Assembly: GCA_949358305.1 (NCBI GenBank)
Contig: OX442319.1
Location: forward strand, 11,594,001-11,658,000
Direction of reading: 5' to 3'
Origin: Strigamia acuminata
Lineage: Eukaryota > Arthropoda > Chilopoda > Geophilomorpha > Linotaeniidae
DNA length: 64,000 nucleotides
Shown here: positions 14,995 to 63,300 of the stretch, one piece after another
How the letters are laid out: each line of letters begins with the position of its first letter
How positions within the stretch are numbered: the stretch's first letter is position 1
Position numbers and translations under genes: made by a program
The notes under the pieces: generated by a model
What the model was told of the DNA's origin: nothing
The model's input: the letters and a program-made list of their open reading frames with translations, nothing else
Database searches by the model: none

Positions 14995-15025
14995 ATATAT
15001 ATTAAGTAATTAAAAAATAGCGACG

Positions 15026-17974: not shown

Positions 17975-17988
17975 AACCGCTAGATTCG

Positions 17989-18342: not shown

Positions 18343-18365
18343 TTTTTTTCCCTTCTATTAAAAAA

Positions 18366-20006: not shown

Positions 20007-20022
20007 ACTAACCATCGTCATA

Positions 20023-24042: not shown

Positions 24043-24051
24043 TCTGAGCAC

Positions 24052-24172
24052 AGAATGAATCTAAATCATTATTCTTTTTTATATAAAAGAAAAATAAATT
24101 TAAAAAAAAAGGAAAATTGATTAAGAATGAAACATACTTTTAGGAATTTTTTTATTTATTAATTAATTAATT
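24052..24172. other. A+T-rich region upstream of polB
   Basis: 121 bases, very A+T-rich, with TATATAAAAG (24076-24085 region) about 35-40 bases upstream of the polymerase ATG on the plus-strand map. It probably holds the polB promoter, but no motif is decisive. Confidence 0.35.
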
Positions 24173-42949: not shown

Positions 42950-44384
42950 TGTTGCAAACAACGTGGAAATATTTTGGAAATTGCATTTATTACTGTGTTT
43001 TTTGTCATATTAAATATTCATAGTGTAGTGGAATTTTTGCCTAATATTTTCATTTATTGCTTTTCAGGTTTTTTCTTATTAAAACATTGTTTTTTAGTGT
43101 TTTCAGTAATTTTAGTGTCTTTTGTGTTGATATTGCATTTTAATTTACTGTTATTTCAAGTGTTTTCAAAGCTTTGTGTCTTATTTCATTGATTTCTTAT
43201 GCATTTTCATGATTTACGGCAATTTTAGGTACATTCGTCGAAGTGCAGTTCAGTTACGCTACATGCGTGACGTCATTTTTCCATTACTAGTCTCGTTTCG
43301 TTAGAACTTCTAACGTTTCGTTCTATACTTTCCGAGTTGTTAAGAATTCTATTTACAATTGCTTTCTACTAATTAAAGTCTGCTCTTTCGACTGGTGTGT
43401 TTTATTATTGCCCAAGTGTTTTCGTTTCATCTGTACGAACGTTCGTTGTCGGCCACCGCATGGGCGCGGCCGATAATGTTCGGTTCGTGCGGCTTACGAT
43501 CTATTTCAAAGTGTTGTGTTGAATAAATACTGTGATTTTGTGCAGGAAATAACATTTCCTAATTTTATTTAACATTCCTATGTGGTTTTTATTAACATTC
43601 TGTGTATCTAATTTCAAATGTACTGGTTTTACCGCCAACATGACGTTCGAGGCCGCCATGTTGGAATTTATCGGTAATTCGTTTTTATTTCAATTTGTTT
43701 GCGTCGTTTATTGATTGAATTGATTATACTATTTGTTTACGATGTATTTTAACCTGAATTCTTATGTTATTTTGTGTTTTAAAGCCATTTTAAATTCAAA
43801 TCTTACGGTTACGTCATCATACTTGTCTGTGATTGGCTATTGCGATCGTCTGCTACACGATCATTGTTTTGTGCATCGTTTTCATTGTTTTACTTATTGA
43901 ATCGAATTGTTATGATTAGCTTTTTTATTCACTGCATTCTTGCGGTCATTTTGATATATTACAAACTGTAATCCGTGCTAATTTCACAATTTGTCAACTT
44001 TGCCTGTATTTCGTTTTCCTCCGTTGCCATGACAACGGAGAATTTTGTATTTGTATTTCGCCGCTAATCGGCTCGGCGCGTGCCATTTTCAGTATTGCGC
44101 ATGTGCGGCTCCCTTGAGGGCCAATTACATTCGTGTATTTTATTCAGTTATCATCTAACCGTTCATTAAAGAAGTTGTTGAATTTTAGCTCGTGTTTAAC
44201 TTTATTTCCGCCATCTTTACCAATGTGTCGGGAGTAGTTAATCTTTTTCCCCGCTGGCTTATGGATAAACAAGCACTCGGATACCTTTCAACAGTGCTCT
44301 CGATTGCTTTCTCCTCATGCAACAATGGATTCGGGAGTGATTATTGTGGTTTCCAGCACGGTTTATGTACGTACTTTGCTATAC
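42950..44384 (+). repeat. BEL LTR C, left part (interrupted by gypsy-2)
   Basis: Matches LTR A at a constant offset of 11,413 bases with no difference noticed, up to CTATAC at 44384. The remaining 78 bases are at 54302-54379 after gypsy-2, and the two parts add to 1513, the length of LTR A. X-box-like site at 44023-44036. Confidence 0.93.
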
Positions 44385-44966
44385 TGTTACGTGGATTCTG
44401 GGCTTCGATCCGAGTTCCACGCAACTGTATTTTGACTGAGTGATAGTGAAAGAATAAGGCGTTGTTTATATTTTTAAATTCCAAACTTAAACTTTATTAG
44501 ATCGGACAGACAAAGTCTGTTCGACCTTCAATAATTATGCGCTTTACACATCAAATAAATCATCATCAACAACTTTGAATGAAATGGCATTTACATTATA
44601 TTAATTCAGTACAACTAAATAACACTTTACAACTGGGTGATAAATTGTATAATTCATAATATCAAAAGCTAGCCGTCAGCCGTACCCTTTGTTTATCGGG
44701 CGACATTAGGCTAGTAAAGGGCGGCTGTAATTCATAGTTACCTATTGAAGTCTGGAGAGAGAAGAGAGCTCTGTCTGAAAGCGGGTGGTTTTATAGCAAA
44801 TCTGCCATAACCCCCATTCACGAATTAATCGGTCCACTCACATGACGATGACGGTTTCCAATCGTCAACGCCATCTGTGGCCGAAATTAAGCAACATTAA
44901 ACTAATAATGGATCAAATTACGTGTTACGAATCGCGCATTAATCGACACGGTTCGTACACGTGACA
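44385..44966 (-). repeat. Gypsy-2 3' LTR
   Basis: 582 bp, preceded on the minus strand by the polypurine tract GCAAAAAAGGGAGT (44967-44980). Confidence 0.94.
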
Positions 44967-44980
44967 ACTCCCTTTTTTGC

Positions 44981-45266
44981 TGTGATTTGGACCCCAAATT
45001 ACAAATTTCGGTCCAGACAGGTCTCTTTTATAGTCGGACATTCTTAAGGAATGTTCGGTTGCTCTTTGCTTTTTATACAAGTTATCACTCAGCTGTTTTA
45101 CAATTATTTCTCAAAATCAAATGAAAATTTCACAATTTTTACATGTACTCCCTTTTAGTTTAATTTATACAGGTCTTTTGTATTTCTATGTTTTATTTTA
45201 CATGTTTTTTTTCTGAAATGAAATGAAAAGTATAAAACTCAAATAACTCAAAATAAAAAATAAACT
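44981..45266 (-). other. Gypsy-2 3' untranslated region
   Basis: About 290 bases between the ORF3 stop and the polypurine tract; A+T-rich, with no gene or clear motif. Confidence 0.5.
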
Positions 45267-46709
45267 TTAGATTTCTTCAAAAGGTTCGAATTTTCCGTGC
45301 TGGATCTCGTACAGGATTCGAACTCGCAATTCCGAGCCCTCCGCTAGTTTCATCAGGTCTCGGCACTCAACGTATCTACGAGCAAAATGTAGAATCATGG
45401 GCCCGCAGCTGTCCCCATCGAGCTGGGCTGCTTTTGGTGGTTCCCATGGCTCGTAACTCGGTATTTCGTATCCAGCACCTATTAAATTGAGTTTAATATT
45501 ACACCACCACGTGAAATGATCCACGTGTGGCTTTCCCGACGAGTCGTAGAACCCCACACACGGCGGAGAACGCTCCATATCAAACACGTATATGATCCAA
45601 TGTTCCTCCGCCGGTATGGGGAAGAACCAAATCTTGTGCTGTTTTTTCGGTTGGTCGACCTGGTCGCGGAGCCAACGCCATGTATTGGGTTTATCCTCGC
45701 CTTTCATTAATTTTGCCACGGTTGCCACTGGAAACGCATAAACTATCGGATATCGCTTCATCAACATACCCAAATAATAGTCAACCACCGTGTCGTGAAC
45801 CCAAGATATACGGCCTGGCATCAATGCTCCTAAAGAGATCATTTCTCTGGGGCCGACCGCGATGTGTGGTCGCACTTCCGACACGTACATTTGCTCATCC
45901 GGGTGATGTTGAAAATATTCCGGCCATTTCTCCAGGGCTTCCATCGCTTTATCTGCAGGAATCTTGACTTCATAGTCGGCTGGTGGTAACGGCAGGTTGA
46001 TCCGTGGGTCGTAGAGCGCTGTTCGCTTCCCTAATTCCTTTGCGCGATCCACTTTGTTACGGATCTTTGCTTCTTCCAGGATCAATACCTGCGCCTCCTG
46101 CTTATAAGCTTGAAAGATTGGTCGTCCTTCCGCGCCCTTTGGTTGAAGAGGAATAACCGCCGCCGCTAGATTTCTCCGTTCAACGTTAATCTCCAGCAAA
46201 CGACGGAAATTTCTCCTCACCGCTCGCTGAGACTGCTCTCGAATAATCTTCAAACCCCTTGGTGTTAATTTCTTTTTCTCGATACCTTCAGTTTTACGAC
46301 GCAAGGTTCTATTTCTCTTACGTCGGTCCTGACGGTTTTTCTTTTTAATGTACTTCGGGTCGTTTGGATCTAGCATCATTGGTGGCTGGCTATGACCTTT
46401 CTTACGTCTGTTGGTAAATGGACGCTCGAACTGGACTATGTCTTCCAATTTAATCGTTTTACTGGTACCCGCTGTTGGATTGTTCAAGTCTATACTTCTA
46501 TCGTACCAATTCCACATGGCCATCGGGTCGATCTCTACTTCAGCTTGATCAGGCATTACATCGTTTAAGTCCGTTGCCTCTTCAGTTGGTTCAATCGGCT
46601 CAACTTCAATTGGTTCGGTTGGTTCGTATTCTGGTATTTCGAACTCGTCGCTCTCATCTGAGCTCGAATGGATGTCCATCCTGTCGAATTTACTCGCCAT
46701 ATTTTCCAT
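45267..46709 (-). CDS. Gypsy-2 ORF3 with a C-terminal Ulp1/SENP-like cysteine protease domain
   Basis: The frame opens with a GTG at 46739; the first ATG is 46709 (480 aa). Numbering from 46739: residues 20-110 are acidic (SSDESDEFEIPEYEPTEP); 120-215 are strongly basic (KKKNRQDRRKRNRTLRRK), likely nuclear-localising or nucleic-acid binding; 290-490 form a Ulp1-type fold. Visible catalytic set: H380 in EEHWIIYVFD, D399 in GFYDSSG, Q439 and C445 in AAQLDGDSCGPMIL. The H-D distance of 19 and Q-C distance of 6 fit the C48 family (yeast Ulp1 has 17 and 6). WVHDTVVDYYLGMLM matches the family's substrate-groove start. Ulp1-type enzymes cleave SUMO or ubiquitin-like tags. It sits in the env slot, same strand as pol, apparently intact. 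Such a domain is known in some DNA transposons, but I know of no standard LTR family with it. Confidence 0.85.
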   Translation of the reverse strand: MENMASKFDRMDIHSSSDESDEFEIPEYEPTEPIEVEPIEPTEEATDLNDVMPDQAEVEIDPMAMWNWYDRSIDLNNPTAGTSKTIKLEDIVQFERPFTNRRKKGHSQPPMMLDPNDPKYIKKKNRQDRRKRNRTLRRKTEGIEKKKLTPRGLKIIREQSQRAVRRNFRRLLEINVERRNLAAAVIPLQPKGAEGRPIFQAYKQEAQVLILEEAKIRNKVDRAKELGKRTALYDPRINLPLPPADYEVKIPADKAMEALEKWPEYFQHHPDEQMYVSEVRPHIAVGPREMISLGALMPGRISWVHDTVVDYYLGMLMKRYPIVYAFPVATVAKLMKGEDKPNTWRWLRDQVDQPKKQHKIWFFPIPAEEHWIIYVFDMERSPPCVGFYDSSGKPHVDHFTWWCNIKLNLIGAGYEIPSYEPWEPPKAAQLDGDSCGPMILHFARRYVECRDLMKLAEGSELRVRILYEIQHGKFEPFEEI

Positions 46710-46739
46710 TTGGCGGTCCTTCGCACTGTCACTAAGCAC

Positions 46740-47623
46740 TACACGATTCCAACCTACTTATGAAGAAAATAAAACAAAACAAAATGAGATTAAATAATAT
46801 CAACCATATTATGCCTAATAAATAAAATTATTCCTATTGCAAATAAATATTCCATAACAAACTTCAAACTTCTAACAATCCCTAAAAGAATTTCAAATTA
46901 ATTAAATTTTTCTTTCATTTTTTTCAAGTTTTCTTTAAAAAATCATTAATATTTTCAAAAACAAACATCAACTTATTCCATTTTACTTATTTACAATAAA
47001 TTATTCTTATCAAAATTCAATCAAATTTCCATCGAAAAATATTTACATTTATCAATTTTAACAAAATTCGCAATGAATTCGCTTATCGCGTCCCGAGTCA
47101 TTCGTGTTGTTAGAACTAAATTTTCCAAATTTCCTCTTTGAAATTTATTTTTAATTTACTCTACTATGCTATTAAATTCAGCATTTTATAATTTTAAAAC
47201 TTTACCCAAATTATTAAGCCTAATTAAAATTCAATGCAGATGAACGAAGATCGCGCTGGGTCCTTTCGCGTCCCCGCCATTCGCACTTTCATTACTTCTT
47301 ATCTATTCTTTAAAATCATCTTATTTCACGCTAATGTGTCATTAAATTTTACTTCTAATCATTTAAAATTTTAGTTTAAAATGTTTTCACCTAATTAAAA
47401 TTCTAACACGAATGAACGAACATGGCGATTAGTTTCACTTTACGAAAATCGCTCAAGAAACGTTTAAAACCTCAAAATTCATCTCTAAAATCACTTAAAA
47501 TTATCAATATCATTCATACAAACCTTTTGAAATACAATATCATACACAAAATATAAATAAATAGACAATAAAAAGATTTTGTTTCCGGGTCACACTATGA
47601 GTTCGTGTTCACCGTAGCAAGAA
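46740..47623 (-). other. Gypsy-2 pol-ORF3 spacer with 3' splice-site-like end
   Basis: 884 bases, A+T-rich, no coding frame. On the minus strand it ends in a pyrimidine tract TTTTGTTTTGTTTTATTTTC followed by TTCATAAGTAG|GTT (plus 46755-46785), a good acceptor for a spliced ORF3 RNA. It holds a diverged tandem duplication: CTAATTAAAATTC recurs at 47220 and 47391, with similar ATGAACGAA(G/C)AT and CGCGTCCC segments (about 172-bp period). Confidence 0.55.
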
Positions 47624-50600
47624 TCAATAGCAATGACGATAGTCTTTTCGTTTCTGCGGTCTGAGTCTGCGCGACCGGAAATCGTCTTTTTGTGTATTTG
47701 CGCCATCTTGTGGCGGATTTTTAAGTTGATTTTCATTAGTTCCTATCAAAGGCTGTGGTTCAAATAGCGATTTTAATGAGATCTGTTCTGTATCGTCTAT
47801 GTAACGTTCTCTTGGTTTGATTTTCGTTATTTCCACTAGTTTTTCGATGTTTTCTTCTACACTTTGTCCTTTTTTACTGATTTTCTTTACTTTATCAGCA
47901 AATTTCACTTTCTTTTCTGGTAATTCTTTCAAAACTTCGTCTATTTCTGGTTCAACTCGTTCTTTATACGGTTTTAGTCTTTCTACATTCACTATATCAC
48001 TTTTCTTTCTTGTTGAATTGATTATTTCATAATCATTCGGTGCAGTTCTTCGCACAATTTCATATGGGCCGGAAAATTGCGGTAAAAGCTTCTCTGACAA
48101 GCCAACTTTTCTGTTAATGGTTTTCAAATATACCAATTCACCTGGTTCAAATTCCTTGTTGACTCTATCTTCATCAAACCTTTTCTTGCTTTTTGCTGAT
48201 TGTTTTTCAAGCCTCTCATTTGCAATTTTCCTGGCTGCTCGAATGAATTTCGCTGTCCTTAAAGTAAATTCTTTCTGTGGCAAATCAAGATTTACATCTA
48301 CTGTCAAATCCACATCATATCCTCGTAAAAGATAATGTGGTGTATAACCTGTTGTTTCATGAACTCCCGTGTTATATGAAAACAGAAGAAATGGAAGAAA
48401 TTCGTCCCAGTCAGTATGTTCTTCATTAACGTAACTTTGCAACATTTTTGCGAATGTCGCGTTAAATCTCTCAGTTAATCCGTTTGTTCTTGGATGGTAT
48501 CCTGACGTAGTTTTATGCAAACTTTTAAACATATTTGAGACTTCCTCAACCATTTTATTCCTGTATTCTGTTCCACGGTCACTTAAAATCTCTCTTGGAC
48601 TGCCTTCTTTCAGAATTACTTCATATAACAACGTTCTCGCTGCTTCTAAAGCTGTAGCTGCTGCTGCTGGTCTAGCTATTGCATTTCTCGAAAGATAATC
48701 AGTCACAACAAAAACATGTTTATTTCCAAGACGTGATAATGGAAATGGTCCAAGCGTATCTATTCCAATTCGCTCAAAAGGCTTTGAAACTGTTGACCAT
48801 GGCTGCATTAGTCCCTTCGCTGGTGTAGTCATCGTTTTTGCTTTCGCGCAACTTTGGCAGGACAAGACGTAATTTCTAACGTCCCTATAAATTCTTGTCC
48901 AAAAGAATCGTGTTCTTATTCGTTTCCATGTTTTTGCCAATCCCAAATGAGCTCCTAGTAATCCATCATGCATTTCATATAATACATCTGTTTGAAGTTG
49001 TTTTGGAACTACTAGTAACAAATCTTCCATGTTCAGGGAACTATTTAGTTTTTTCTTCCTGAACAACGTTTTGTTTTGAAGAACGAACTGCTTTAGAGGT
49101 CGTCTTCTTTTTCTTGGAAGTTGCTCTTGGTTTTCTAGCGCTGTTATGAGGTCCAGAAGTTTAGGATCCTTCCTCTGCTCAGCAGGGAGGTCCAAATTTT
49201 CTAAGAGAAGCGAAGGCAATTTTTGGATTTCTTCTTCACTTAACTCTTCCTGGATCCTACTCAGGGCATCAGCATCTGTGTGCTTCTTGCCACTTTTATG
49301 AAATATATCAAAATCATACTCAGCTAGTTGCAGCGCCCACCTGGCCAGCCGTCCATTTGGATTTCGGACTCCTTTCAGCCATTGGAGGGCAGAATGGTCG
49401 GTAATAATTTGGAATTTCTGTCCATATAAGTACGGTCTAAACTTTTCAATAGCAAAAATAATTGCTAACATTTCCCTTTCAGTTGCAGTGTAATTCATTT
49501 CTGCTGTGCTCATCATACGACTTGCATAAGCGATGGCACGCTCTTGATTGTTGACTTTTTGCTTCAAAATAGCTCCTAATCCATAGGCACTTGCATCGCA
49601 TGAAATCATGAAAGGCTGAGCAAAATCTGGATGCGCTAACACCGGCACTGTTATTAATGCTGTTCGAAGCATGTGGAATGCTTTTTCATGGGGAGGTCCC
49701 CAATCAAACTTTTCATCCTTTTTGGTTAAATTCACCAGAGGTTTGGAAATGTCCGCAAAACCTTTAATAAACTTCCGGTAATACGAGCATAATCCAAGAA
49801 AACCACGTAGTTGTTTAACGTTCACAGGAATTGGAAACTTGGCCACAGAATCCAGGTTCCTGGGATCCGGTGAAATACCTTCTGCATCAACCACATGTCC
49901 GAGGTATCGTATGGTGTGTGTCGCAAACGTACATTTACTCAGTTTGACTTTGAGATTTGCTGCTCTTAGTTTTTCGAAAACTGCCTCCAAATCGACGAGG
50001 TGCTGGTCAAAAGTCTTTGAAAACACTATCAAATCGTCAAGATATGCTATGCATACTTTTCCCAGGAGATTACCAAGTACCTTATTCATCAATTTTTGAA
50101 AGGCTGCTGGACTGTTACATAATCCCATTCCAAGGACATTAAACTCATAGTGTCCGCTTGAAGTAGTGAACGCTGTTTTCTCACGATCTTGTTCATCTAT
50201 TTCGACTTGGTGATATCCCTGAATGAGATCCATCATTGAAAAATACTTTGCACCCGCTAGCTGATCTAGGGTGTCATCTATACGTGGTAAGGGATACACC
50301 ATTTTTTTTGTCACTGCATTCAAACGTCTCCAATCTACACAAAATCTCCATTTGCCATCTCTCTTCTTGATGAGCAGTACTGGTGCACTCCATGGGCTCT
50401 CGGATTCTCTAATGACTCCTTGCTCAAGTAACTTTTTTGTTTCAGCATCCTCGATTTCTTTTTCCTTAATCGATCGTCTATAAGGTTGTAAATGGATTGG
50501 AGGAGAATCTCCAGTATCTATTCGATGCCTAATCGTGTGAGCTCTGCCTAAATCATTATCAGTCTTCGCAAATCTATCTGAATTTTTCTTCAACAATTGT

Positions 50601-51433
50601 AGCATCAGCTCTTGTTGTGATGGCGTCATATTGTCATTTGCCATAGACGTGCTAAAGTCAAAATGATCATCTCTTTTTTCATCAAGCACGCCAGACTCAA
50701 TTACATAAAAAGCTTTTGCAATTGCTGAATTACGTCCTAAGTAAATTGTCTTTTTAGTCGGATTTGCAACTCGCAGAACTCCTTCACCTTTTCTGAATTT
50801 GGTCAATGTTTTACAGCAAATCACTCCAAATCGATCTACTACTCCACTAAGTGGTTCAATAAATAATTCATCGTCTACTTTCTTTGCAATTTTTATTGGT
50901 ACTACACATTCATGTAAAGCTGGTATAGTAATAGGTTTCAAAACTCGAGCTATGTAATTTTGATCGGTATGATTTTTTGACATTGGGAAAACTTCTTGTT
51001 GTTCATCTTTTGGGCCTACAAAGATCTTCTGGTGGTCGTAATCAAGTTTACACCTCGCAGATGTCAGAAAGCTATGTCCCAGCAGTAAATGGTGGCCAAA
51101 TCCGTTGACGATCAGCACCTCAATGGTGTGTTGCTGTTGTCCAACGTCAATAGTGATCTTGGTTTTTCCTTCCGGGATTATTATTGAACCATCTACAACT
51201 CTAAGTCGAATGTATGGACATGGTTGATATTTGAGCTGCAATGTTCTTACCAAATCTTCATTAATAATATTACGATAACCTCCAGAATCCAAGACACCTG
51301 TTATCTCCATACCATTCACCACTACTGGAATTTGCAAAAGTTCATCTGTGGCGTTCAACTCAATAATTTCTAACTTCCTTTTTCTTCTTCTCTTCTTTTT
51401 GTTATTTCGTCTTTGTGGCCATTCTAGTTTCCC
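47624..51433 (-). CDS. pol: Gypsy-2 Pol: protease, RT, RNase H, integrase
   Basis: Entered by frameshift at 51433; a TTG at 51358 is the first non-ATG start codon in frame and is unlikely to be used. Numbering from 51358: protease GVLDSGGYRNII about 22-33; reverse transcriptase with LIKKRDGKWRFCVDWRRLN and YLDDLIVF about 440; RNase H SCDASAYGLGAIL about 590; integrase H2C2 finger (HLGLAK...CQSCAKAK) about 800-840; D,D,E at GIDTLGPF about 867, LSDRGTEY about 925 and TERFNATF about 965; GPY/F module LPQFSGPYEIVRR about 1095. A charged tail follows. All catalytic motifs are present and uninterrupted. There are no AT-hooks, unlike gypsy-1. Confidence 0.94.
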   Translation of the reverse strand, partial: GKLEWPQRRNNKKKRRRKRKLEIIELNATDELLQIPVVVNGMEITGVLDSGGYRNIINEDLVRTLQLKYQPCPYIRLRVVDGSIIIPEGKTKITIDVGQQQHTIEVLIVNGFGHHLLLGHSFLTSARCKLDYDHQKIFVGPKDEQQEVFPMSKNHTDQNYIARVLKPITIPALHECVVPIKIAKKVDDELFIEPLSGVVDRFGVICCKTLTKFRKGEGVLRVANPTKKTIYLGRNSAIAKAFYVIESGVLDEKRDDHFDFSTSMANDNMTPSQQELMLQLLKKNSDRFAKTDNDLGRAHTIRHRIDTGDSPPIHLQPYRRSIKEKEIEDAETKKLLEQGVIRESESPWSAPVLLIKKRDGKWRFCVDWRRLNAVTKKMVYPLPRIDDTLDQLAGAKYFSMMDLIQGYHQVEIDEQDREKTAFTTSSGHYEFNVLGMGLCNSPAAFQKLMNKVLGNLLGKVCIAYLDDLIVFSKTFDQHLVDLEAVFEKLRAANLKVKLSKCTFATHTIRYLGHVVDAEGISPDPRNLDSVAKFPIPVNVKQLRGFLGLCSYYRKFIKGFADISKPLVNLTKKDEKFDWGPPHEKAFHMLRTALITVPVLAHPDFAQPFMISCDASAYGLGAILKQKVNNQERAIAYASRMMSTAEMNYTATEREMLAIIFAIEKFRPYLYGQKFQIITDHSALQWLKGVRNPNGRLARWALQLAEYDFDIFHKSGKKHTDADALSRIQEELSEEEIQKLPSLLLENLDLPAEQRKDPKLLDLITALENQEQLPRKRRRPLKQFVLQNKTLFRKKKLNSSLNMEDLLLVVPKQLQTDVLYEMHDGLLGAHLGLAKTWKRIRTRFFWTRIYRDVRNYVLSCQSCAKAKTMTTPAKGLMQPWSTVSKPFERIGIDTLGPFPLSRLGNKHVFVVTDYLSRNAIARPAAAATALEAARTLLYEVILKEGSPREILSDRGTEYRNKMVEEVSNMFKSLHKTTSGYHPRTNGLTERFNATFAKMLQSYVNEEHTDWDEFLPFLLFSYNTGVHETTGYTPHYLLRGYDVDLTVDVNLDLPQKEFTLRTAKFIRAARKIANERLEKQSAKSKKRFDEDRVNKEFEPGELVYLKTINRKVGLSEKLLPQFSGPYEIVRRTAPNDYEIINSTRKKSDIVNVERLKPYKERVEPEIDEVLKELPEKKVKFADKVKKISKKGQSVEENIEKLVEITKIKPRERYIDDTEQISLKSLFEPQPLIGTNENQLKNPPQDGANTQKDDFRSRRLRPQKRKDYRHCY

Positions 51434-52923
51434 GATGCATTAGGTGGTCCACCACGTGGGGCTCCTCGATTTCCTCGGCCTTGGTAATTTTCAATAAAAT
51501 TTTTACCTTTATAATTTGAATTTTTAGGATGACCTTGGTTATTTGGATTCCCCTGTTGTCTTTGACCTTGTGGTGGATTCCCTTGCTGTTGTGGCGGATT
51601 CCATTGCTGTTGTGGATATTGTTGTTGGAATCCTTGACCTGAATTATTCCAATTACCTCTGTTTTGACCTCTATTATTCCATCCTCTACCTTGGTTCCAA
51701 TTGTTGTTATTATTCCACCATCCTCGTTGTTGTCCAGGTCGTCCTCTAAAGTTACCTCTATTGTAGAACTGCGCCTGGTTTGGATGTGGCGTATACCATT
51801 GGTTTTGGTAGAAGACTGGAGTAACCTCTGCATATTGGACATCCCCAAACTGCTGCTGTTGTCTTAGCACTTTGACCTCTGCTAACAACTCGTCTTTTGT
51901 TTTATTGACGTCGCTCGGTTCTACCAAGCAACTTGGTGTCACCTTGCTAGGTGTATCAACAGCTTTTTGCAGTAGGGTTAGTAAAACTTCTGCAGGGTCC
52001 TCGTTGAATGCATGAGCTTCCAATAACCCAAGTTGAGATGTTAGTTGATCCAACGTCTTTGGAAAGTTGACTACTAATTTATCTCTAGTCGCCTTTTTAA
52101 GTGTCTGAAACACATGAAATATCTTTTGCTCTTCCGTGAATGATGGTCTTGCAAAAGAACATTCTTTTAGTATCTTCTGCATGTGTTCCAAAGCTGTTCC
52201 ATCCTTGTGCTGCATTGCTTGTAATTTCGACAAAATCGTTGTTATTTGTCGTCTAAACTTCGTCTTCAACGCATCTTTCCATTGTGTCCATGTTCTAGTC
52301 GGATACAGTGGAAGTTGATCTAAATACCATGATGATGCGGAAGATTTCAGCACAATTGACAGATGCTTAATACGTTCAGTATCATCGGCGATCGTATCTT
52401 CATATCCAATCAACCACGTGTCAATATTTCCTGTAGCCGGATCAAAATCAACTGGATTTCTTCTATTGACCACTAAGTTTTGTAACACTGTCTGTATTGC
52501 TACCAGTTCTGATGATGGCGAAGCATTAGCCATTTTAGTAGAAGATTGTTCAATTTTTATTTCCACTTTTGGTTGAATTGATTCCTCGTGCTCTTCAATA
52601 TCTTTGGCTGCGTCCTCAAATACGTCGTCCAAATTTACCTGTGCCTTTTCCAAGAGATCGCCTAATTCTAATTGTTCCTTAGGCGATAACCACTTATACA
52701 CCTCTGGATCTATTAATCTTTTATTACGCTGCTCGGGAGTTTCCAGATCTTCCCTTTTTTGTGTTTTTTGTTCACCTTTGGATTTTGATCTATACCTCCG
52801 ACCAGTTACTTTATCATCCAGTAACTCTTTGGGTGTATCAGGTTCTCCTGGTTCCTTTTTGGAAAACAGATAATCTGCTACAAACTCTGGCAGTTTATAA
52901 CGTTTGGATTCCGCAATGATTAA
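51424..52923 (-). CDS. gag: Gypsy-2 Gag with a Q/N/G-rich C-terminus
   Basis: The frame is open from just after a TAA at 52924-52926 to the TAG at 51424-51426 (499 codons), yet its first ATG is only at 52533; a GTG lies at 52701. The sequence before that ATG looks coding (TPEQRNKRLIDPEVYKWLSP), so initiation is probably non-AUG or spliced. The capsid core is VDFDPATGNIDTWLIGYED, SSASSWYLDQLP and WTQWKDALKTKFRRQ. There is no CCHC knuckle; instead the last 120 residues are Gln/Asn/Gly/Arg-rich with RG and QQ repeats (RGNFRGRPGQQRGWWNN), a plan seen in RNA-binding, phase-separating proteins. The slippery heptamer lies immediately before the stop. Confidence 0.82.
   Translation of the reverse strand, partial: LIIAESKRYKLPEFVADYLFSKKEPGEPDTPKELLDDKVTGRRYRSKSKGEQKTQKREDLETPEQRNKRLIDPEVYKWLSPKEQLELGDLLEKAQVNLDDVFEDAAKDIEEHEESIQPKVEIKIEQSSTKMANASPSSELVAIQTVLQNLVVNRRNPVDFDPATGNIDTWLIGYEDTIADDTERIKHLSIVLKSSASSWYLDQLPLYPTRTWTQWKDALKTKFRRQITTILSKLQAMQHKDGTALEHMQKILKECSFARPSFTEEQKIFHVFQTLKKATRDKLVVNFPKTLDQLTSQLGLLEAHAFNEDPAEVLLTLLQKAVDTPSKVTPSCLVEPSDVNKTKDELLAEVKVLRQQQQFGDVQYAEVTPVFYQNQWYTPHPNQAQFYNRGNFRGRPGQQRGWWNNNNNWNQGRGWNNRGQNRGNWNNSGQGFQQQYPQQQWNPPQQQGNPPQGQRQQGNPNNQGHPKNSNYKGKNFIENYQGRGNRGAPRGGPPNASGN
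51427..51433 (-). promoter_or_regulatory. Programmed -1 frameshift heptamer GGGAAAC in gypsy-2
   Basis: Minus-strand ...TCG GGA AAC TAG: the heptamer G GGA AAC is in exact slippery register and abuts the Gag stop. A -1 slip reads GGG AAA CTA GAA and continues into pol through a Lys/Arg-rich stretch (NNKKRRRKRK). No obvious simple stem directly follows. Confidence 0.75.
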
Positions 52924-53701
52924 TTAATTAAACTGAAGACACAATCCTTTGAAGCACTCAGTTTGTTCAATTGCAAATAACACTATAACACTCTTAACTC
53001 TCTGAAAACAAGTCAATGATTAAACAATTCAAACAATTCAATCTTCACAATCAAATTTCAAAATTTTCAAAACAACTAAATTTTCATGGTCATATTTCAA
53101 AACTTTATTAAATCTATTAGTAGCAAATATTCAAGAAAACTTTTTTTTTTTTTTTTTTATTAGTAAATAATTACAAAAATATCCTGAAATTCAAAAATTC
53201 ATTAATAAATTCAAACTATATATTTTATTAATATACACTTTCATCAAAATGGAAAACACTAAATTCCTTATTTAACAATAATAAACGTCACCATTCATAT
53301 TCAATTTACAATTAAACTTCACAATAAATATCACTCAATATCACTTCATTCAATTAAATATTCAAAGTTATTTTGTTATATTTTATTTCTTAATTTCACC
53401 AATTTTAAAACTCAATTAAATCTATTATCTTAATTAACAATGAGTCACCTTTTTCATTTCTATCACTCTTATCAATGAATCATCTGTATGCAAATTAAAT
53501 TACGGGTTTTCAAAATTTTATATGATTTTTAAACTGATTTTCCACAAATTTCAATTCTAATTGCTTTAATTTCCCAATTTTAATTTTCCAATTTCCTGAA
53601 AAACTAATCACTAGGTAAACTCAAGCAAAACTAAGCTTAATTTCAAAATTTTCGCTAATTTTCAAATTTTATTCTAATTTTATGCGGTATGGGAAAGACT
53701 C
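52924..53701 (-). other. Gypsy-2 A+T-rich leader
   Basis: About 780 bases with no coding frame. Very A+T-rich, with a long homopolymer of T (plus strand about 53142-53158). Nothing else recognised. Confidence 0.5.
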
Positions 53702-53713
53702 GCATCTCCACCA
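53702..53713 (-). promoter_or_regulatory. Gypsy-2 primer binding site, tRNA-Ala type
   Basis: Minus-strand TGGTGGAGATGC lies two bases inside the 5' LTR. It equals the complement of the 3' end of eukaryotic tRNA-Ala (GCATCTCCA plus CCA) over 12 bases, as far as I remember that tRNA. Confidence 0.6.
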
Positions 53714-53715
53714 TT

Positions 53716-54297
53716 TGTTACGTGGATTCTGGGCTTCGATCCGAGTTCCACGCAACTGTATTTTGACTGAGTGATAGTGAAAGAATAAGGCGTTGTTTAT
53801 ATTTTTAAATTCCAAACTTAAACTTTATTAGATCGGACAGACAAAGTCTGTTCGACCTTCAATAATTATGCGCTTTACACATCAAATAAATCATCATCAA
53901 CAACTTTGAATGAAATGGCATTTACATTATATTAATTCAGTACAACTAAATAACACTTTACAACTGGGTGATAAATTGTATAATTCATAATATCAAAAGC
54001 TAGCCGTCAGCCGTACCCTTTGTTTATCGGGCGACATTAGGCTAGTAAAGGGCGGCTGTAATTCATAGTTACCTATTGAAGTCTGGAGAGAGAAGAGAGC
54101 TCTGTCTGAAAGCGGGTGGTTTTATAGCAAATCTGCCATAACCCCCATTCACGAATTAATCGGTCCACTCACATGACGATGACGGTTTCCAATCGTCAAC
54201 GCCATCTGTGGCCGAAATTAAGCAACATTAAACTAATAATGGATCAAATTACGTGTTACGAATCGCGCATTAATCGACACGGTTCGTACACGTGACA
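53716..54297 (-). repeat. Gypsy-2 5' LTR
   Basis: 582 bp; on the minus strand it begins TGTCACGTG and ends CACGTAACA. I noticed no difference from the other LTR. Confidence 0.94.
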
Positions 54298-54301
54298 ATA
54301 C

Positions 54302-54379
54302 GATCATCAAATCATAGTGGCGGGAATTTCAAACCGCAAATGCCCATTTCTTCTATATTCGTGTTGACCGACCGCAACA
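54302..54379 (+). repeat. BEL LTR C, right remainder (78 bp)
   Basis: Starts GATCATCAAATCATAGTGG after the second ATAC and ends GACCGACCGCAACA, identical to the end of LTR A (32972-33049). It is followed by the second ACATC. Confidence 0.93.
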
Positions 54380-57300
54380 ACATCCAAGCAATAATTTGAA
54401 AGAATAAACTTTTGATCTCATTTGACATCACAGTTGACTTAGCACAAACACCACAAACCAATGTCTCTGAATGTTCTGAAATAGTGTTTAAACCTTAGTA
54501 GAAGGCTTCAATGTAAGTTTTAGCAACATCCAAGCAATGATTTGGGAGAATAGACTTTTGATCTCATCACAGTTGACTTAGCACAAACATCACAAGACCA
54601 ATGTCTCTGAATGTTTTGAAATAGTGTTTAAACCTTAGTAGAAAGCTTTAATGTAAGTTTTAGCAACATCCAAGCAATGATTTGGGAGAATAGACTTTTG
54701 ATCTCATCACAGTTGACTTAGCACAAACATCACAAGACCAATGTCTCTGAATGTTCTGAAATAGTGTTTAAACCTTAGTAGAAAGCTTTAATGTAAGTTT
54801 TAGCAACATCCAAGCAATGATTTGAAAGAATAAACTTTTGATCTCATTTGACATCACAGTTGACTTAGCACAAACATCACAAGACCAATGTCTCTGAATG
54901 TTCTGAAATAGTGTTTAAACCTTAGTAGAAGGCTTCAATGTAAGTTTTAGCAACATCCAAGCAATGATTTGGAAGTATAAATTTTTGATCTCATTTGACA
55001 TCACAGTTGACTTAGCACAAACATCACAAGACCAATGTCTCTGAATGTTCTGAAATAGTGTTTAAACCTTAGTAGAAGGCTTCAATGTAAGTTTTAGCAA
55101 CATCCAAGCAATGATTTGGAAGTATAAATTTTTGATCTCATTTGACATCACAGTTGACTTAGCACAAACACCACAAACCAATGTCTCTGAATGTTCTGAA
55201 ATAGTGTTTAAACCTTAGTAGAAGGCTTCAATGTAAGTTTTAGCAACATCCAAGCAATGATTTGGGAGAATAGACTTTTGATCTCATCACAGTTGACTTA
55301 GCACAAACATCACAAGACCAATGTCTCTGAATGTTTTGAAATAGTGTTTAAACCTTAGTAGAAAGCTTTAATGTAAGTTTTAGCAACATCCAAGCAATGA
55401 TTTGGAAGAATAGACTTTTGATCTCATCACAGTTGAATTAGCACAAACATCACAAGACCAATGTCTCTGAATGTTCTGAAATAGTGTTTAAACCTTAGTA
55501 GAAAGCTTTAATGTAAGTTTTAGCAACATCCAAGAAATGATTTGGGAAAATAGACTTTTGATCTCATCACAGTTGACTTAGCACAAACATCACAAGACCA
55601 ATGTCTCTGAATGTTCTGAAATAGTGTTTAAACCTTAGTAGAAAGCTTTAATGTAAGTTTTAGCAACATCCAAGCAATGATTTGAAAGAATAAACTTTTG
55701 ATCTCATTTGACATCACAGTTGACTTAGCACAAACACCACAAACCAATGTCTCTGAATGTTCTGAAATAGTGTTTAAACCTTAGTAGAAGGCTTCAATGT
55801 AAGTTTTAGCAACATCCAAGCAATGATTTGGGAGAATAGACTTTTGATCTCATCACAGTTGACTTAGCACAAACATCACAAGACCAATGTCTCTGAATGT
55901 TTTGAAATAGTGTTTAAACCTTAGTAGAAAGCTTTAATGTAAGTTTTAGCAACATCCAAGCAATGATTTGGGAGAATAGACTTTTGATCTCATCACAGTT
56001 GACTTAGCACAAACATCACAAGACCAATGTCTCTGAATGTTCTGAAATAGTGTTTAAACCTTAGTAGAAAGCTTTAATGTAAGTTTTAGCAACATCCAAG
56101 CAATGATTTGAAAGAATAAACTTTTGATCTCATTTGACATCACAGTTGACTTAGCACAAACATCACAAGACCAATGTCTCTGAATGTTCTGAAATAGTGT
56201 TTAAACCTTAGTAGAAGGCTTCAATGTAAGTTTTAGCAACATCCAAGCAATGATTTGGAAGTATAAATTTTTGATCTCATTTGACATCACAGTTGACTTA
56301 GCACAAACATCACAAGACCAATGTCTCTGAATGTTCTGAAATAGTGTTTAAACCTTAGTAGAAGGCTTCAATGTAAGTTTTAGCAACATCCAAGCAATGA
56401 TTTGGAAGTATAAATTTTTGATCTCATTTGACATCACAGTTGACTTAGCACAAACACCACAAACCAATGTCTCTGAATGTTCTGAAATAGTGTTTAAACC
56501 TTAGTAGAAGGCTTCAATGTAAGTTTTAGCAACATCCAAGCAATGATTTGGGAGAATAGACTTTTGATCTCATCACAGTTGACTTAGCACAAACATCACA
56601 AGACCAATGTCTCTGAATGTTTTGAAATAGTGTTTAAACCTCAGTAGAAAGCTTTAATGTAAGTTTTAGCAACATCCAAGCAATGATTTGGGAGAATAGA
56701 CTTTTGATCTCATCACAGTTGAATTAGCACAAACATCACAAGACCAATGTCTCTGAATGTTCTGAAATAGTGTTTAAACCTTAGTAGAAAGCTTTAATGT
56801 AAGTTTTAGCAACATCCAAGAAATGATTTGGGAAAATAGACTTTTGATCTCATCACAGTTGACTTAGCACAAACACCACAAACCAATGTCTCTGAATGTT
56901 CTGAAATAGTGTTTAAACCTTAGTAGAAGGCTTCAATGTAAGTTTTAGCAACATCCAAGCAATGATTTGAGAGAATAGACTTTTGATCTCATCACAGTTG
57001 ACTTAGCACAAACACCACAAGACCAATGTCTCTGAATGTTTAGAAATAGTGTTTAAACCTTAGTAGAAGGCTTCAATGTAAGTGTTAGCAACATCCAAGC
57101 AATAATTTGAAAGAATAAACTTTTGATCTCATTTGACATCACAGTTGACTTAGCACAAACACCACAAACCAATGTCTCTGAATGTTCTGAAATAGTGTTT
57201 AAACCTTAGTAGAAAGTTTTAATGTAAGTTTTAGCAACATCCAAGAAATGATTTGGGAAAATAGACTTTTGATCTCATCACAGTTGACTTAGCACAAACA

Positions 57301-60300
57301 CCACAAGACCAATGTCTCTGAATGTTCTGAAATAGTGTTTAAACCTTAGTAGAAAGCTTTAATGTAAGTTTTAGCAACATCCAAGAAATGATTTGGGAAA
57401 ATAGACTTTTGATCTCATCACAGTTGACTTAGCACAAACATCACAAGACCAATGTCTCTGAATGTTCTGAAATAGTGTTTAAACCTTAGTAGAAAGCTTT
57501 AATGTAAGTTTTAGCAACATCCAAGCAATGATTTGAAAGAATAAACTTTTGATCTCATTTGACATCACAGTTGACTTAGCACAAACACCACAAACCAATG
57601 TCTCTGAATGTTCTGAAATAGTGTTTAAACCTTAGTAGAAGGCTTCAATGTAAGTTTTAGCAACATCCAAGCAATGATTTGGGAGAATAGACTTTTGATC
57701 TCATCACAGTTGACTTAGCACAAACATCACAAGACCAATGTCTCTGAATGTTTTGAAATAGTGTTTAAACCTTAGTAGAAAGCTTTAATGTAAGTTTTAG
57801 CAACATCCAAGCAATGATTTGGGAGAATAGACTTTTGATCTCATCACAGTTGACTTAGCACAAACATCACAAGACCAATGTCTCTGAATGTTCTGAAATA
57901 GTGTTTAAACCTTAGTAGAAAGCTTTAATGTAAGTTTTAGCAACATCCAAGCAATGATTTGAAAGAATAAACTTTTGATCTCATTTGACATCACAGTTGA
58001 CTTAGCACAAACATCACAAGACCAATGTCTCTGAATGTTCTGAAATAGTGTTTAAACCTTAGTAGAAGGCTTCAATGTAAGTTTTAGCAACATCCAAGCA
58101 ATGATTTGGAAGTATAAATTTTTGATCTCATTTGACATCACAGTTGACTTAGCACAAACATCACAAGACCAATGTCTCTGAATGTTCTGAAATAGTGTTT
58201 AAACCTTAGTAGAAGGCTTCAATGTAAGTTTTAGCAACATCCAAGCAATGATTTGGAAGTATAAATTTTTGATCTCATTTGACATCACAGTTGACTTAGC
58301 ACAAACACCACAAACCAATGTCTCTGAATGTTCTGAAATAGTGTTTAAACCTTAGTAGAAGGCTTCAATGTAAGTTTTAGCAACATCCAAGCAATGATTT
58401 GGGAGAATAGACTTTTGATCTCATCACAGTTGACTTAGCACAAACATCACAAGACCAATGTCTCTGAATGTTTTGAAATAGTGTTTAAACCTCAGTAGAA
58501 AGCTTTAATGTAAGTTTTAGCAACATCCAAGCAATGATTTGGGAGAATAGACTTTTGATCTCATCACAGTTGAATTAGCACAAACATCACAAGACCAATG
58601 TCTCTGAATGTTCTGAAATAGTGTTTAAACCTTAGTAGAAAGCTTTAATGTAAGTTTTAGCAACATCCAAGAAATGATTTGGGAAAATAGACTTTTGATC
58701 TCATCACAGTTGACTTAGCACAAACACCACAAACCAATGTCTCTGAATGTTCTGAAATAGTGTTTAAACCTTAGTAGAAGGCTTCAATGTAAGTTTTAGC
58801 AACATCCAAGCAATGATTTGAGAGAATAGACTTTTGATCTCATCACAGTTGACTTAGCACAAACACCACAAGACCAATGTCTCTGAATGTTTAGAAATAG
58901 TGTTTAAACCTTAGTAGAAGGCTTCAATGTAAGTGTTAGCAACATCCAAGCAATAATTTGAAAGAATAAACTTTTGATCTCATTTGACATCACAGTTGAC
59001 TTAGCACAAACACCACAAACCAATGTCTCTGAATGTTCTGAAATAGTGTTTAAACCTTAGTAGAAAGTTTTAATGTAAGTTTTAGCAACATCCAAGAAAT
59101 GATTTGGGAAAATAGACTTTTGATCTCATCACAGTTGACTTAGCACAAACACCACAAGACCAATGTCTCTAAATGTTCTGAAATAGTGTTTAAACCTTAG
59201 TAGACGGCTTCAATGTAAGTTTTAGCAACATCCAAGCAATGATTTGGGAGAATAGACTTTTGATCTCATCACAGTTGACTTAGCACAAACACCACAAGAC
59301 CAATGTCTCTGAATGTTCTGAAATAGTGTTTAAACCTTAGTAGAAAGCTTTAATGTAAGTTTTAGCAACATCCAAGCAATGATTTGGGAGAATAGACTTT
59401 TGATCTCATCACAGTTGAATTAGCACAAACATCACAAGACCAATGTCTCTGAATGTTCTGAAATAGTGTTTAAACCTTAGTAGAAAGCTTTAATGTAAGT
59501 TTTAGCAACATCCAAGAAATGATTTGGGAAAATAGACTTTTGATCTCATCACAGTTGACTTAGCACAAACATCACAAGACCAATGTCTCTGAATGTTCTG
59601 AAATAGTGTTTAAACCTTAGTAGAAAGCTTTAATGTAAGTTTTAGCAACATCCAAGCAATGATTTGAAAGAATAAACTTTTGATCTCATTTGACATCACA
59701 GTTGACTTAGCACAAACACCACAAACCAATGTCTCTGAATGTTCTGAAATAGTGTTTAAACCTTAGTAGAAGGCTTCAATGTAAGTTTTAGCAACATCCA
59801 AGCAATGATTTGGGAGAATAGACTTTTGATCTCATCACAGTTGACTTAGCACAAACATCACAAGACCAATGTCTCTGAATGTTTTGAAATAGTGTTTAAA
59901 CCTTAGTAGAAAGCTTTAATGTAAGTTTTAGCAACATCCAAGCAATGATTTGGGAGAATAGACTTTTGATCTCATCACAGTTGACTTAGCACAAACATCA
60001 CAAGACCAATGTCTCTGAATGTTCTGAAATAGTGTTTAAACCTTAGTAGAAAGCTTTAATGTAAGTTTTAGCAACATCCAAGCAATGATTTGAAAGAATA
60101 AACTTTTGATCTCATTTGACATCACAGTTGACTTAGCACAAACATCACAAGACCAATGTCTCTGAATGTTCTGAAATAGTGTTTAAACCTTAGTAGAAGG
60201 CTTCAATGTAAGTTTTAGCAACATCCAAGCAATGATTTGGAAGTATAAATTTTTGATCTCATTTGACATCACAGTTGACTTAGCACAAACATCACAAGAC

Positions 60301-63300
60301 CAATGTCTCTGAATGTTCTGAAATAGTGTTTAAACCTTAGTAGAAGGCTTCAATGTAAGTTTTAGCAACATCCAAGCAATGATTTGGAAGTATAAATTTT
60401 TGATCTCATTTGACATCACAGTTGACTTAGCACAAACACCACAAACCAATGTCTCTGAATGTTCTGAAATAGTGTTTAAACCTTAGTAGAAGGCTTCAAT
60501 GTAAGTTTTAGCAACATCCAAGCAATGATTTGGGAGAATAGACTTTTGATCTCATCACAGTTGACTTAGCACAAACATCACAAGACCAATGTCTCTGAAT
60601 GTTTTGAAATAGTGTTTAAACCTCAGTAGAAAGCTTTAATGTAAGTTTTAGCAACATCCAAGCAATGATTTGGGAGAATAGACTTTCGATCTCATCACAG
60701 TTGAATTAGCACAAACATCACAAGACCAATGTCTCTGAATGTTCTGAAATAGTGTTTAAACCTTAGTAGAAAGCTTTAATGTAAGTTTTAGCAACATCCA
60801 AGAAATGATTTGGGAAAATAGACTTTTGATCTCATCACAGTTGACTTAGCACAAACACCACAAGACCAATGTCTCTGAATGTTCTGAAATAGTGTTTAAA
60901 CCTTAGTAGAAGGCTTCAATGTTAGTTTTAGCAACATCCAAGCAATAATTTGAAAGAATAAACTTTTGATCTCATTTGACATCACAGTTGACTTAGCACA
61001 AACACCACAAACCAATGTCTCTGAATGTTCTGAAATAGTGTTTAAACCTTAGTAGAAGGCTTCAATGTAAGTTTTAGCAACATCCAAGCAATGATTTGAG
61101 AGAATAGACTTTTGATCTCATCACAGTTGACTTAGCACAAACACCACAAGACCAATGTCTCTGAATGTTTAGAAATAGTGTTTAAACCTTAGTAGAAGGC
61201 TTCAATGTAAGTGTTAGCAACATCCAAGCAATAATTTGAAAGAATAAACTTTTGATCTCATTTGACATCACAGTTGACTTAGCACAAACACCACAAACCA
61301 ATGTCTCTGAATGTTCTGAAATAGTGTTTAAACCTTAGTAGAAAGTTTTAATGTAAGTTTTAGCAACATCCAAGAAATGATTTGGGAAAATAGACTTTTG
61401 ATCTCATCACAGTTGACTTAGCACAAACACCACAAGACCAATGTCTCTAAATGTTCTGAAATAGTGTTTAAACCTTAGTAGACGGCTTCAATGTAAGTTT
61501 TAGCAACATCCAAGCAATGATTTGGGAGAATAGACTTTTGATCTCATCACAGTTGACTTAGCACAAACACCACAAGACCAATGTCTCTGAATGTTCTGAA
61601 ATAGTGTTTAAACCTTAGTAGAAAGTTTTAATGTAAGTTTTAGCAACATCCAAGAAATGATTTGGGAAAATAGACTTTTGATCTCATCACAGTTGACTTA
61701 GCACAAACACCACAAGACCAATGTCTCTAAATGTTCTGAAATAGTGTTTAAACCTTAGTAGACGGCTTCAATGTAAGTTTTAGCAACATCCAAGCAATGA
61801 TTTGGGAGAATAGACTTTTGATCTCATCACAGTTGACTTAGCACAAACACCACAAGACCAATGTCTCTGAATGTTCTGAAATAGTGTTTAAACTTTAGTA
61901 GAAAGCTTTAATGTAAGTTTTAGCAACATCCAAGCAATGATTTGAAAGAATAAACTTTTGATCTCATTTGACATCACAGTTGACTTAGCACAAACATCAC
62001 AAGACCAATGTCTCTGAATGTTCTGAAATAGTGTTTAAACCTTAGTAGAAGGCTTCAATGTAAGTTTTAGCAACATCCAAGCAATGATTTGGAAGAATAA
62101 ACTTTTGATCCCATTTGACATCACAGTTGACTTAGCACAAACATCACAAGACCAATGTTTCTAAATGTTCTGAAATAGTGTTTAAACCTTAGTAGAAAGC
62201 TTCAATGTAAGTTTTAGCAACATCCAAGCAATAATTTGAAAGAATAAACTTTTGATTTCATTTGACGTCACAGTTGACTTAGCACAAACACCACAAGACC
62301 AATGTGTCTGAATGTTCTGAAATAGTGTTTAAACCTTAGTAGAAAGCTTTAATGTAAGTTTTAGCAACATCCAAGCAATGATTTGAAAGAATAAACTTTT
62401 GATCTCATTTGACATCACAGTTGACTTAGCACAAACATCACAAGACCAATGTCTCTGAATGTTCTGAAATAGTGTTTAAACCTTAGTAGAAGGCTTCAAT
62501 GTAAGTTTTAGCAACATCCAAGCAATGATTTGGAAGAATAAACTTTTGATCCCATTTGACATCACAGTTGACTTAGCACAAACATCACAAGACCAATGTT
62601 TCTAAATGTTCTGAAATAGTGTTTAAACCTTAGTAGAAAGCTTCAATGTAAGTTTTAGCAACATCCAAGCAATAATTTGAAAGAATAAACTTTTGATTTC
62701 ATTTGACGTCACAGTTGACTTAGCACAAACACCACAAGACCAATGTGTCTGAATGTTCTGAAATAGTGTTTAAACCTTAGTAGAAGGCTTCAATGTAAGT
62801 TTTAGCAACATCCAAGCAATGATTTTGGAGAATAGACTTTTGATCTCATCACAGTTGACTTAGCACAAACATCACAAGACCAATGTCTCTGAATGTTCTG
62901 AAATAGTGTTTAAACCTTAGTAGAAAGCTTTAATGTAAGTTTTAGCAACATCCAAGCAATGATTTGAAAGAATAAACTTTTGATCTCATTTGACATCACA
63001 GTTGACTTAGCACAAACATCACAAGACCAATGTCTCTGAATGTTCTGAAATAGTGTTTAAACCTTAGTAGAAGGCTTCAATGTAAGTTTTAGCAACATCC
63101 AAGCAATGATTTGGAAGAATAAACTTTTGATCCCATTTGACATCACAGTTGACTTAGCACAAACATCACAAGACCAATGTTTCTGAATGTTCTGAAATAG
63201 TGTTTAAACCTTAGTAGAAAGCTTCAATGTAAGTTTTAGCAACATCCAAGCAATAATTTGAAAGAATAAACTTTTGATCTCATTTGACGTCACAGTTGAC

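Follow-up and report, generated by a model that had tools for sequence, protein, structure and literature searches.

A predicted Ulp1-type cysteine protease in the third open reading frame of a Ty3/gypsy retrotransposon of Strigamia acuminata

Mobile elements of several kinds carry cysteine protease domains related to Ulp1. Among DNA transposons, Ginger1 has an integrase of the gypsy type fused to a Ulp1 (or OTU) domain (PMC2836005), and MULE/Vandal elements contain Ulp1-bearing KIU/VANC genes, where the domain has long been kept and where VANC-type genes counter silencing (PMC13317346). The mobile elements CryptonF and CryptonS include a C48/Ulp1 peptidase, which in CryptonS is an additional protein (PMC3212892). 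A Ulp1-like cysteine protease domain is also part of the nematode non-LTR (long terminal repeat) retrotransposons NeSL and Utopia-1_TSP (PMC4640811), and in LTR retrotransposons of bdelloid rotifers the env slot is occupied by a gene for an enzyme (PMC5408684). In this article, we describe the third open reading frame (ORF3) of a Ty3/gypsy LTR retrotransposon that lies in a 64,000-nucleotide stretch of the Strigamia acuminata genome (assembly GCA_949358305.1, contig OX442319.1, positions 11,594,001 to 11,658,000), hereafter referred to as the window. A preliminary description of this stretch had proposed that ORF3 is a Ulp1-type protease and had mentioned such proteases as passengers of DNA transposons, passing over the nematode non-LTR elements.

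At the level of sequence it is established that ORF3 is related to Ulp1 proteases over the whole domain, that putative catalytic and Gly-Gly-clamp residues are retained, that several lineages have the gene between pol and the 3' LTR, and that it is under purifying selection. We regard ORF3 as a predicted enzyme that the element itself encodes, a clan CE cysteine protease of the Ulp1/SENP family, and the searches given below support this assignment. As for its role, we propose that ORF3 is an ancestral, selected, nuclear deSUMOylase that would act in trans against SUMO-dependent silencing, and we give this functional reading a probability of about one half.

Identity and conservation of the ORF3 protein

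ORF3 occupies positions 45267..46709 on the minus strand, encodes 480 aa comprising a Ulp1/SENP-type cysteine protease with an N-terminal half of its own, and is placed between pol and the 3' LTR, where gypsy elements sometimes carry env. The preliminary description was right that an intact frame stands between pol and the polypurine tract, and the frame exists over the span 45267–46739 that it gave; however, position 46739 is a GTG taken as a start under the bacterial code and the first ATG is at 46709. Consequently, the residues that it listed as H380, D399, Q439 and C445 are present but are renumbered here as H370, D389, Q429 and C435. The 496-codon frame is not a product of chance, because none of 1,000 simulated elements reached such a length (the longest frame was 266). 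The N-terminal half (45888..46709) is acidic and then basic, as had been noted, with 22 D/E and 2 K/R in residues 1–65 and 9 D/E and 28 K/R in residues 111–200; the basic part resembles a nuclear localization signal, and the half as a whole has no match in Pfam. The catalytic domain as used in the searches comprises residues 275–480 (45270..45887). No transmembrane segment was found in ORF3 (the highest mean hydropathy over 19 residues is 1.03), which rules out a retroviral or errantiviral env, i.e., a membrane-anchored glycoprotein.

The codons of the predicted active site are those of His370 (45600..45602), Asp389 (45543..45545), Gln429 at the oxyanion hole (45423..45425) and the nucleophile Cys435 (45405..45407), and the codon of Trp303, at the position of the Ulp1 Gly-Gly-clamp Trp, is found at 45801..45803. 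The preliminary description had relied on the Ulp1-like spacing of the four residues H-D-Q-C, which by itself is poor evidence for Ulp1 identity: it was reproduced in 558 of 20,000 shuffled sequences and in three of the 56 stop-to-stop frames of at least 100 aa in the window, ORF3 being one of the three. The extended pattern W..D..HW..D..Q..CG was not seen in any of the 20,000 shuffles and among the 56 frames it occurs in ORF3 only. The W-H-D-Q-C spacing of ORF3 is 67/19/40/6, compared with what we take to be 66/17/43/6 in yeast Ulp1.

When the single ORF3 domain was searched against the PDB, all 13 matches with E ≤10 were SENP/Ulp1 chains (best E 7.3e-05), while the shuffled domain matched nothing and the reversed domain matched two unrelated chains (E 0.58 and 0.96) and no Ulp1 or SENP. 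A profile built from 19 ORF3 sequences matched SENP1 with E 3.3e-11 over profile positions 251–441 of 447, with the region of the catalytic Cys aligned. The top 17 of its 23 PDB matches were SENP1/2/3/5, Ulp1 and XopD, 16 of them at E ≤0.0095, and the remaining six (ribosomal S6, three claudin-3 chains, centrosomin and FAM32A) had E ≥0.57. Over 90–94 aligned residues, the catalytic stretch of ORF3 is 28–31% identical to Ulp1 and SENP1. We consider the identity of ORF3 as a Ulp1-type protease decided because the profile match to SENP1 covers the full domain, and a chance motif is ruled out by this match together with the selection described below, despite the weak H-D-Q-C spacing. Across the 19 ORF3 members, 14 match Pfam C48 at E ≤1 (best 0.0019). 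Searches of ORF3 and pol against viral and genomic contig collections, PHROGs and NCBIfam returned nothing informative.

The same profile bears on the possibility that ORF3 is a Ulp1-fold protease acting on another ubiquitin-like tag, such as NEDD8 or ubiquitin itself. Clan CE presumably includes enzymes of such specificity, and specificity cannot be read from the ORF3 sequence; on the other hand, all Ulp1-family matches of the profile belong to the SENP1/2/3/5, Ulp1 and XopD group, which we take to be SUMO-directed, with neither SENP8 nor any other bacterial deubiquitinase at E ≤10. We therefore view a different tag as very unlikely.

Sequences matching ORF3 were found at no fewer than 88 places in the host genome (237.5 Mb in 157 contigs), some of these places being pieces of one copy; 87 of 385 candidates were scored, so that the count is a lower bound. 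Their identities to ORF3 fall at about 90–100%, 56–72%, 51% and 36–41%, and by a hand count 58 of the 88 places are free of stops over at least 381 residues. Of 32 loci that were read, four (L013, L014, L015 and L020) were dropped for a shortened frame, which leaves 28 distinct open frames of at least 380 aa, including the window copy itself (L001) and two that are partly truncated (L011 and L012). In all 28 frames W303, W371, D389, Q429 and C435 are invariant; W303 and W371 we presume to be the clamp of the Gly-Gly tail and the Trp of the HW motif, respectively, as in Ulp1. In the alignment of 19 sequences, all members agree at 32 of 190 positions of the catalytic part and at 14 of 290 positions of the N-terminal half, and in the basic region R130, R138 and K145 are the same in all 19.

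The position of ORF3 within the element is also retained. In the closest group of 14 loci (L001–L013 and L020), the end of pol adjoins ORF3 in 12 and an LTR match is found on the other side in 13, two of these matches being partial. Pol adjoins ORF3 in the identity groups of 94–100%, 60–64%, 41% and 37%; in two distant groups an open C-terminal pol frame lies upstream, 597 and 697 aa long within the piece and 63% and 69% identical to the window pol, and one such distant copy has identical 519-bp LTRs and, if its LTR ends at GTAACA, a 4-bp target site duplication (TSD). The preliminary description had allowed for a host gene captured by chance in a single copy; this is ruled out because ORF3 and its catalytic residues are kept in other copies, down to 36% identity. 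No pol match was found within 2.4 kb upstream of four outlying copies, three of which lack the catalytic His and one of which is the single copy at 51%. Open ORF3-like frames of this kind are L050, one read from four similar places and having Arg for His, and the 51% copy L051 with the full catalytic set (the upstream pieces are L065 and L064, respectively); both are candidates for non-autonomous or host-adopted versions of ORF3.

The ratio of nonsynonymous to synonymous change (dN/dS), which had been suggested as a check, was estimated by the NG86 method for 19 pairs of copies, which share members and hence are not independent. All 12 close pairs that keep the His have dN/dS of 0.03–0.13, alike in the N-terminal and catalytic halves, six more distant pairs are saturated, and the pair L059/L060 (97% identical, with Ser in place of His) has 0.88 from 29 changes. 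The low ratios in the close pairs indicate that the protein and not just the DNA has been preserved. Between the window copy and L016, L017 and L019, the synonymous difference is 0.33–0.48 in the end of pol and 0.85–0.87 in ORF3; this is suggestive of an exchange of the ORF3 cassette between lineages, which we do not claim, as codon bias and saturation can give the same pattern.

Copies without ORF3 and the proposed function

Not every copy depends on ORF3. A search with pol, in which 37 of 7,294 candidates were scored and compared with the ORF3 matches listed above, gave 25 of 37 pol matches with no ORF3 match among those listed. An ORF3 match lies downstream in 11 of 14 pol copies at 96–100% identity versus one of 23 at 94–95%. 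Pol is free of stops in all 25 copies without an ORF3 match, compared with stops in four of the 12 with ORF3. All three of the 25 that were read (L072, L073 and L074) lack ORF3. In L073, a 99% pol copy, 95% identity to the window element continues as far as the first ORF3 codons and resumes at the last ~10 codons, the two alignments overlapping by 7 nt, i.e., ORF3 has been lost by a precise internal deletion. In L072 and L074, both 94% pol copies, the end of pol is followed by the AT-rich interval, a spacer and the LTR, with the ORF3 part missing. Together with L072 and L074, 20 further 94% pol copies score almost alike and are without a counterpart among the listed ORF3 matches, so that this subfamily looks like a burst of elements lacking ORF3; further 99% pol copies with no listed ORF3 match are at C9:2867703 and C1:65065859. 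The precise internal deletion in a 99% pol copy makes it seem that ORF3 was lost more than once, and because distant lineages have the gene, derived loss is the simplest reading of its absence. Examination of other family members, as the preliminary description had advised, thus finds the ORF and its residues in other copies as expected but also many near relatives without the gene.

Such a distribution might suggest a passenger, namely a captured protease gene that rides along with no benefit to the element. Copies with stop-free pol and no listed ORF3 match, set beside the pol stops in four of the 12 copies with ORF3, are in line with this, as is the third-position GC content, which is 0.48 in the N-terminal half and 0.54 in the catalytic part of ORF3 versus 0.32 in gag and 0.31 in pol and points to a separate origin. 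However, a passenger is disfavoured by the dN/dS of the 12 close pairs, which is low in the N-terminal half too, and by catalytic residues that are kept down to 36% identity, and it is the least probable of the explanations considered here. ORF3 is thus selected in many copies, whereas in others it can be dispensed with in cis, much as env is in the envelope-less families of retroviruses.

In the mechanism that we propose, ORF3 would be translated from its own ATG, probably from a spliced mRNA or a separate one, and would enter the nucleus by means of its basic N-terminal half. There it may deSUMOylate host proteins that act in silencing or restricting the element, such as those of SUMO-dependent small-RNA silencing complexes. 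If the enzyme acts in trans, copies without ORF3 could still spread beside copies that keep it, and a deSUMOylase working in this way would account for the selection on ORF3 as well as for the success of the copies that lack it; frequent ORF3-less copies with stop-free pol (25 of 37 scored, three of three read) are what one would expect if ORF3 is supplied in trans. A connection of SUMO with silencing is documented in C. elegans, where Argonaute-directed silencing requires SUMOylation of HDA-1 and fly and mouse parallels are discussed (PMC8131101), and in yeast, where lower SUMOylation in ubc9, siz1 siz2 and ulp1 mutants leads to more Ty1 RNA (PMC8585004).

Two alternatives keep the enzyme but change its target. 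The first is that ORF3 deSUMOylates Gag, integrase or the integration complex of its own element, or shields them from SUMO-targeted ubiquitin ligases. An own-element target is in line with the one consensus SUMO site in the Gag frame, IKIE at residue 123, and with the retention of ORF3 beside pol over long divergence; yet a single Gag site is unremarkable, pol has no site of the consensus pattern used, and copies with stop-free pol and no ORF3 are numerous. We judge this possibility unlikely. The second is that the enzyme serves in maturation and cleaves Gag or Pol, in the way that adenain and pox I7 cut virion proteins. With the ORF3 domain as query, Pfam C57 (pox I7; E 0.0049) scores better than C48 (E 0.062), although both families belong to clan CE. 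A Foldseek search with a poor structure model placed pox core proteases next after Ulp1/SENP (ranks 1–10 of 41, best E 0.3), a result of little weight. Nevertheless, pol encodes its own aspartic protease and the copies without ORF3 retain a stop-free pol, so that maturation fits worse than deSUMOylation; in addition, the Trp residues that we assign to the Gly-Gly clamp and the HW motif are invariant in the 28 frames, and adenain and I7 are absent from the PDB matches of the 19-sequence profile at E ≤10. A role in maturation is, in our view, distinctly unlikely.

Several observations weigh against the trans-acting deSUMOylase as we propose it. As for the enzyme, the lead of C57 over C48 just mentioned belongs here, the whole window ORF3 protein scores 12.6 bits against a Pfam C48 cut-off of 20.7, the last 97 aa searched alone have no match in the PDB, and the structure models made from single sequences are unusable (pLDDT 38 and 40). 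His370 is kept in 25 of the 28 frames, being replaced by Arg in L050 and by Ser in L059 and L060, D306 (the Asp of the Ulp1 W-x-x-D) is present in 20 of 28 and G436 in 27 of 28. As for the role, the 25 of 37 pol copies that do without ORF3 are also compatible with a gene of little current use, and since Ty1 of yeast is derepressed when Ulp1 does not function properly, more protease need not lower silencing. A wider proposal, according to which a metazoan Ty3/gypsy clade would possess a trans-acting deSUMOylase in the env slot that predates the split of its families (ORF3 down to 36% identity), dismantles SUMO-dependent silencing and is now exploited by ORF3-less "cheater" copies, is offered tentatively and with considerable doubt.

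The host element and its neighbours in the window

ORF3 belongs to a complete Ty3/gypsy element of 9,913 bp (44385..54297, minus strand). Its 5' LTR (53716..54297) and 3' LTR (44385..44966) are each 582 bp long, the former with TG...CA ends, and differ at none of 582 positions, in agreement with the preliminary description of a young element. Comparison of the flanks gives the TSD ATAC (GTAT on the element strand) at 54298..54301 on the 5' side and at 44381..44384 on the 3' side. The primer binding site TGGTGGAGATGC... follows the 5' LTR on the minus strand (53696..53713), and TGGTGGAGATGC presumably fits the 3' end of tRNA-Ala; the polypurine tract AAAAAAGGGAG precedes the 3' LTR (44968..44978, minus strand).

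On the same strand, the gag frame (51424..52923) is identified by Pfam Ty3_capsid (E 1.2e-05, below the curated cut-off) and has its first in-frame ATG only at 52533, being open for ~130 codons upstream of it (52534–52923), so that translation may begin at a non-AUG codon or the leader may be spliced. Immediately ahead of the gag stop, and in the gag frame, is a slippery heptamer G GGA AAC (51427..51433), where a -1 frameshift into pol is presumed; no clear stem is found downstream of it (z +1.08, with folding equal or better in 166 of 200 shuffles). Pol (47624..51439) encodes in order the aspartic protease, reverse transcriptase, RNase H and integrase, with Pfam matches to gag-asp protease (4.1e-08), RVT_1 (8.8e-38), RT_RNaseH (1e-38), H2C2 (7.5e-21) and rve (3.7e-07); the integrase core rve is just under its cut-off, whereas H2C2, reverse transcriptase and RNase H are well above theirs. 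The LTRs, TSD, primer binding site, polypurine tract, gag and order of pol domains are those of a Ty3/gypsy element. From the pol stop to the ORF3 ATG extends an AT-rich interval (46710..47623, minus strand; GC 0.26 in the first 884 nt), with sequences resembling 3' splice sites near 46753–46757 whose modest scores rank them 12th and 14th of the 14 sites listed.

The element is inserted in a BEL/Pao retrotransposon (31537–54379) that it splits in two and whose pol matches Pfam Pao peptidase A17 (E 1.8e-40); elements of the BEL/Pao type are described as metazoan. When the gypsy element and one TSD copy are removed, the restored site equals the BEL/Pao 5' LTR over 978 of 978 nt; because the empty site is restored exactly, the whole unit including ORF3 arrived in one recent insertion into the BEL/Pao 3' LTR. 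The BEL/Pao LTRs do not differ in the 1,435 nt that were compared, and the element has an internal partial duplication (37322 and 40916). The insertion site adjoins a 140-bp satellite array, and long arrays of this satellite flank the BEL/gypsy block at 24738–31536 and 54378–64000.

Elsewhere in the window, a second gypsy element (1651–14994, plus strand) has 1,162-bp LTRs that are 99.9% identical, ATATAT on both flanks, gag at 2980–5019, pol at 4902–10049 and a third ORF at 11411–13201 (596 aa, with a CxxCxGxG zinc-ribbon-like stretch and no confident family). No relation was found between this third ORF and ORF3, and kinship of the two was set aside. Upstream of the Ser-for-His copy L060 are a relative of the same third ORF and a stretch 78% like window positions 16436–17468. 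The second gypsy element appears to sit inside a Polinton/adintovirus-like element (1–1650 and 14995–24060) with a double-jelly-roll capsid (15014–16345, Pfam 3.1e-64), PolB (20023–24060, 1.5e-27) and a weak adenain-like ORF (17881–18342, adenain E 1). An origin of ORF3 from this adenain-like protease was rejected, there being no meaningful BLASTP match (E 2.1).

Comparison with known elements and proteases

Cellular Ulp1/SENP proteases have in common with ORF3 the layout of W, H, D, Q and C and a profile match over the whole domain, and they differ in the N-terminal half and in that ORF3 belongs to a mobile element. Env-bearing gypsy elements, by which we mean errantiviruses, presumably have a third ORF in the same place, downstream of pol and ahead of the 3' LTR; ORF3 is instead a predicted protease with no transmembrane segment. 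Other elements of the same genome (L026–L031 and L033–L034) likewise have C48 domains, in long frames of 1,075 and 1,828 aa that are present in several copies, one of which is MULE-like with a PHD finger, both by sub-threshold Pfam matches.

The described Ulp1-bearing elements differ from this one in kind and in the place of the protease. NeSL and Utopia-1_TSP are non-LTR retrotransposons with a restriction-like endonuclease and have the Ulp1 domain N-terminal in the reverse transcriptase protein, whereas here there are LTRs, an integrase and a separate ORF after the integrase (PMC4640811). Ginger1 is a cut-and-paste DNA transposon with terminal inverted repeats whose protease is the C-terminal domain of the transposase, in contrast to the reverse transcriptase, LTRs and separate ORF3 of our element (PMC2836005). 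The MULE/Vandal elements are plant DNA transposons, the silencing concerned is DNA methylation, and the function of their Ulp1 domain is described as unknown (PMC13317346), and CryptonF and CryptonS are oomycete tyrosine-recombinase elements, unlike the LTR element here (PMC3212892). The ORF3 enzymes of the bdelloid LTR retrotransposons are GDSL and DEDDy, unlike here, and the text of that article contains 0 occurrences of Ulp1, cysteine protease or SUMO (PMC5408684). Among the papers listed by searches of open-licence PMC full text, a set that takes in neither Repbase nor most subscription journals, we found no LTR retrotransposon with a Ulp1 gene.

SUMO takes part in the silencing of retroelements or transposons in yeast, worms and flies (PMC8585004, PMC8131101), and among the same listed papers we found no described countermeasure against it encoded by an LTR element. 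The many copies of a young family that carry a selected SUMO-protease-like gene, beside near-identical copies without it, offer a natural plus/minus comparison within one genome. The element described here would extend to LTR retrotransposons the recurrent association of Ulp1 with transposons that is seen in non-LTR, MULE, Ginger and Crypton elements, and this recurrence points to a shared need rather than to accident.

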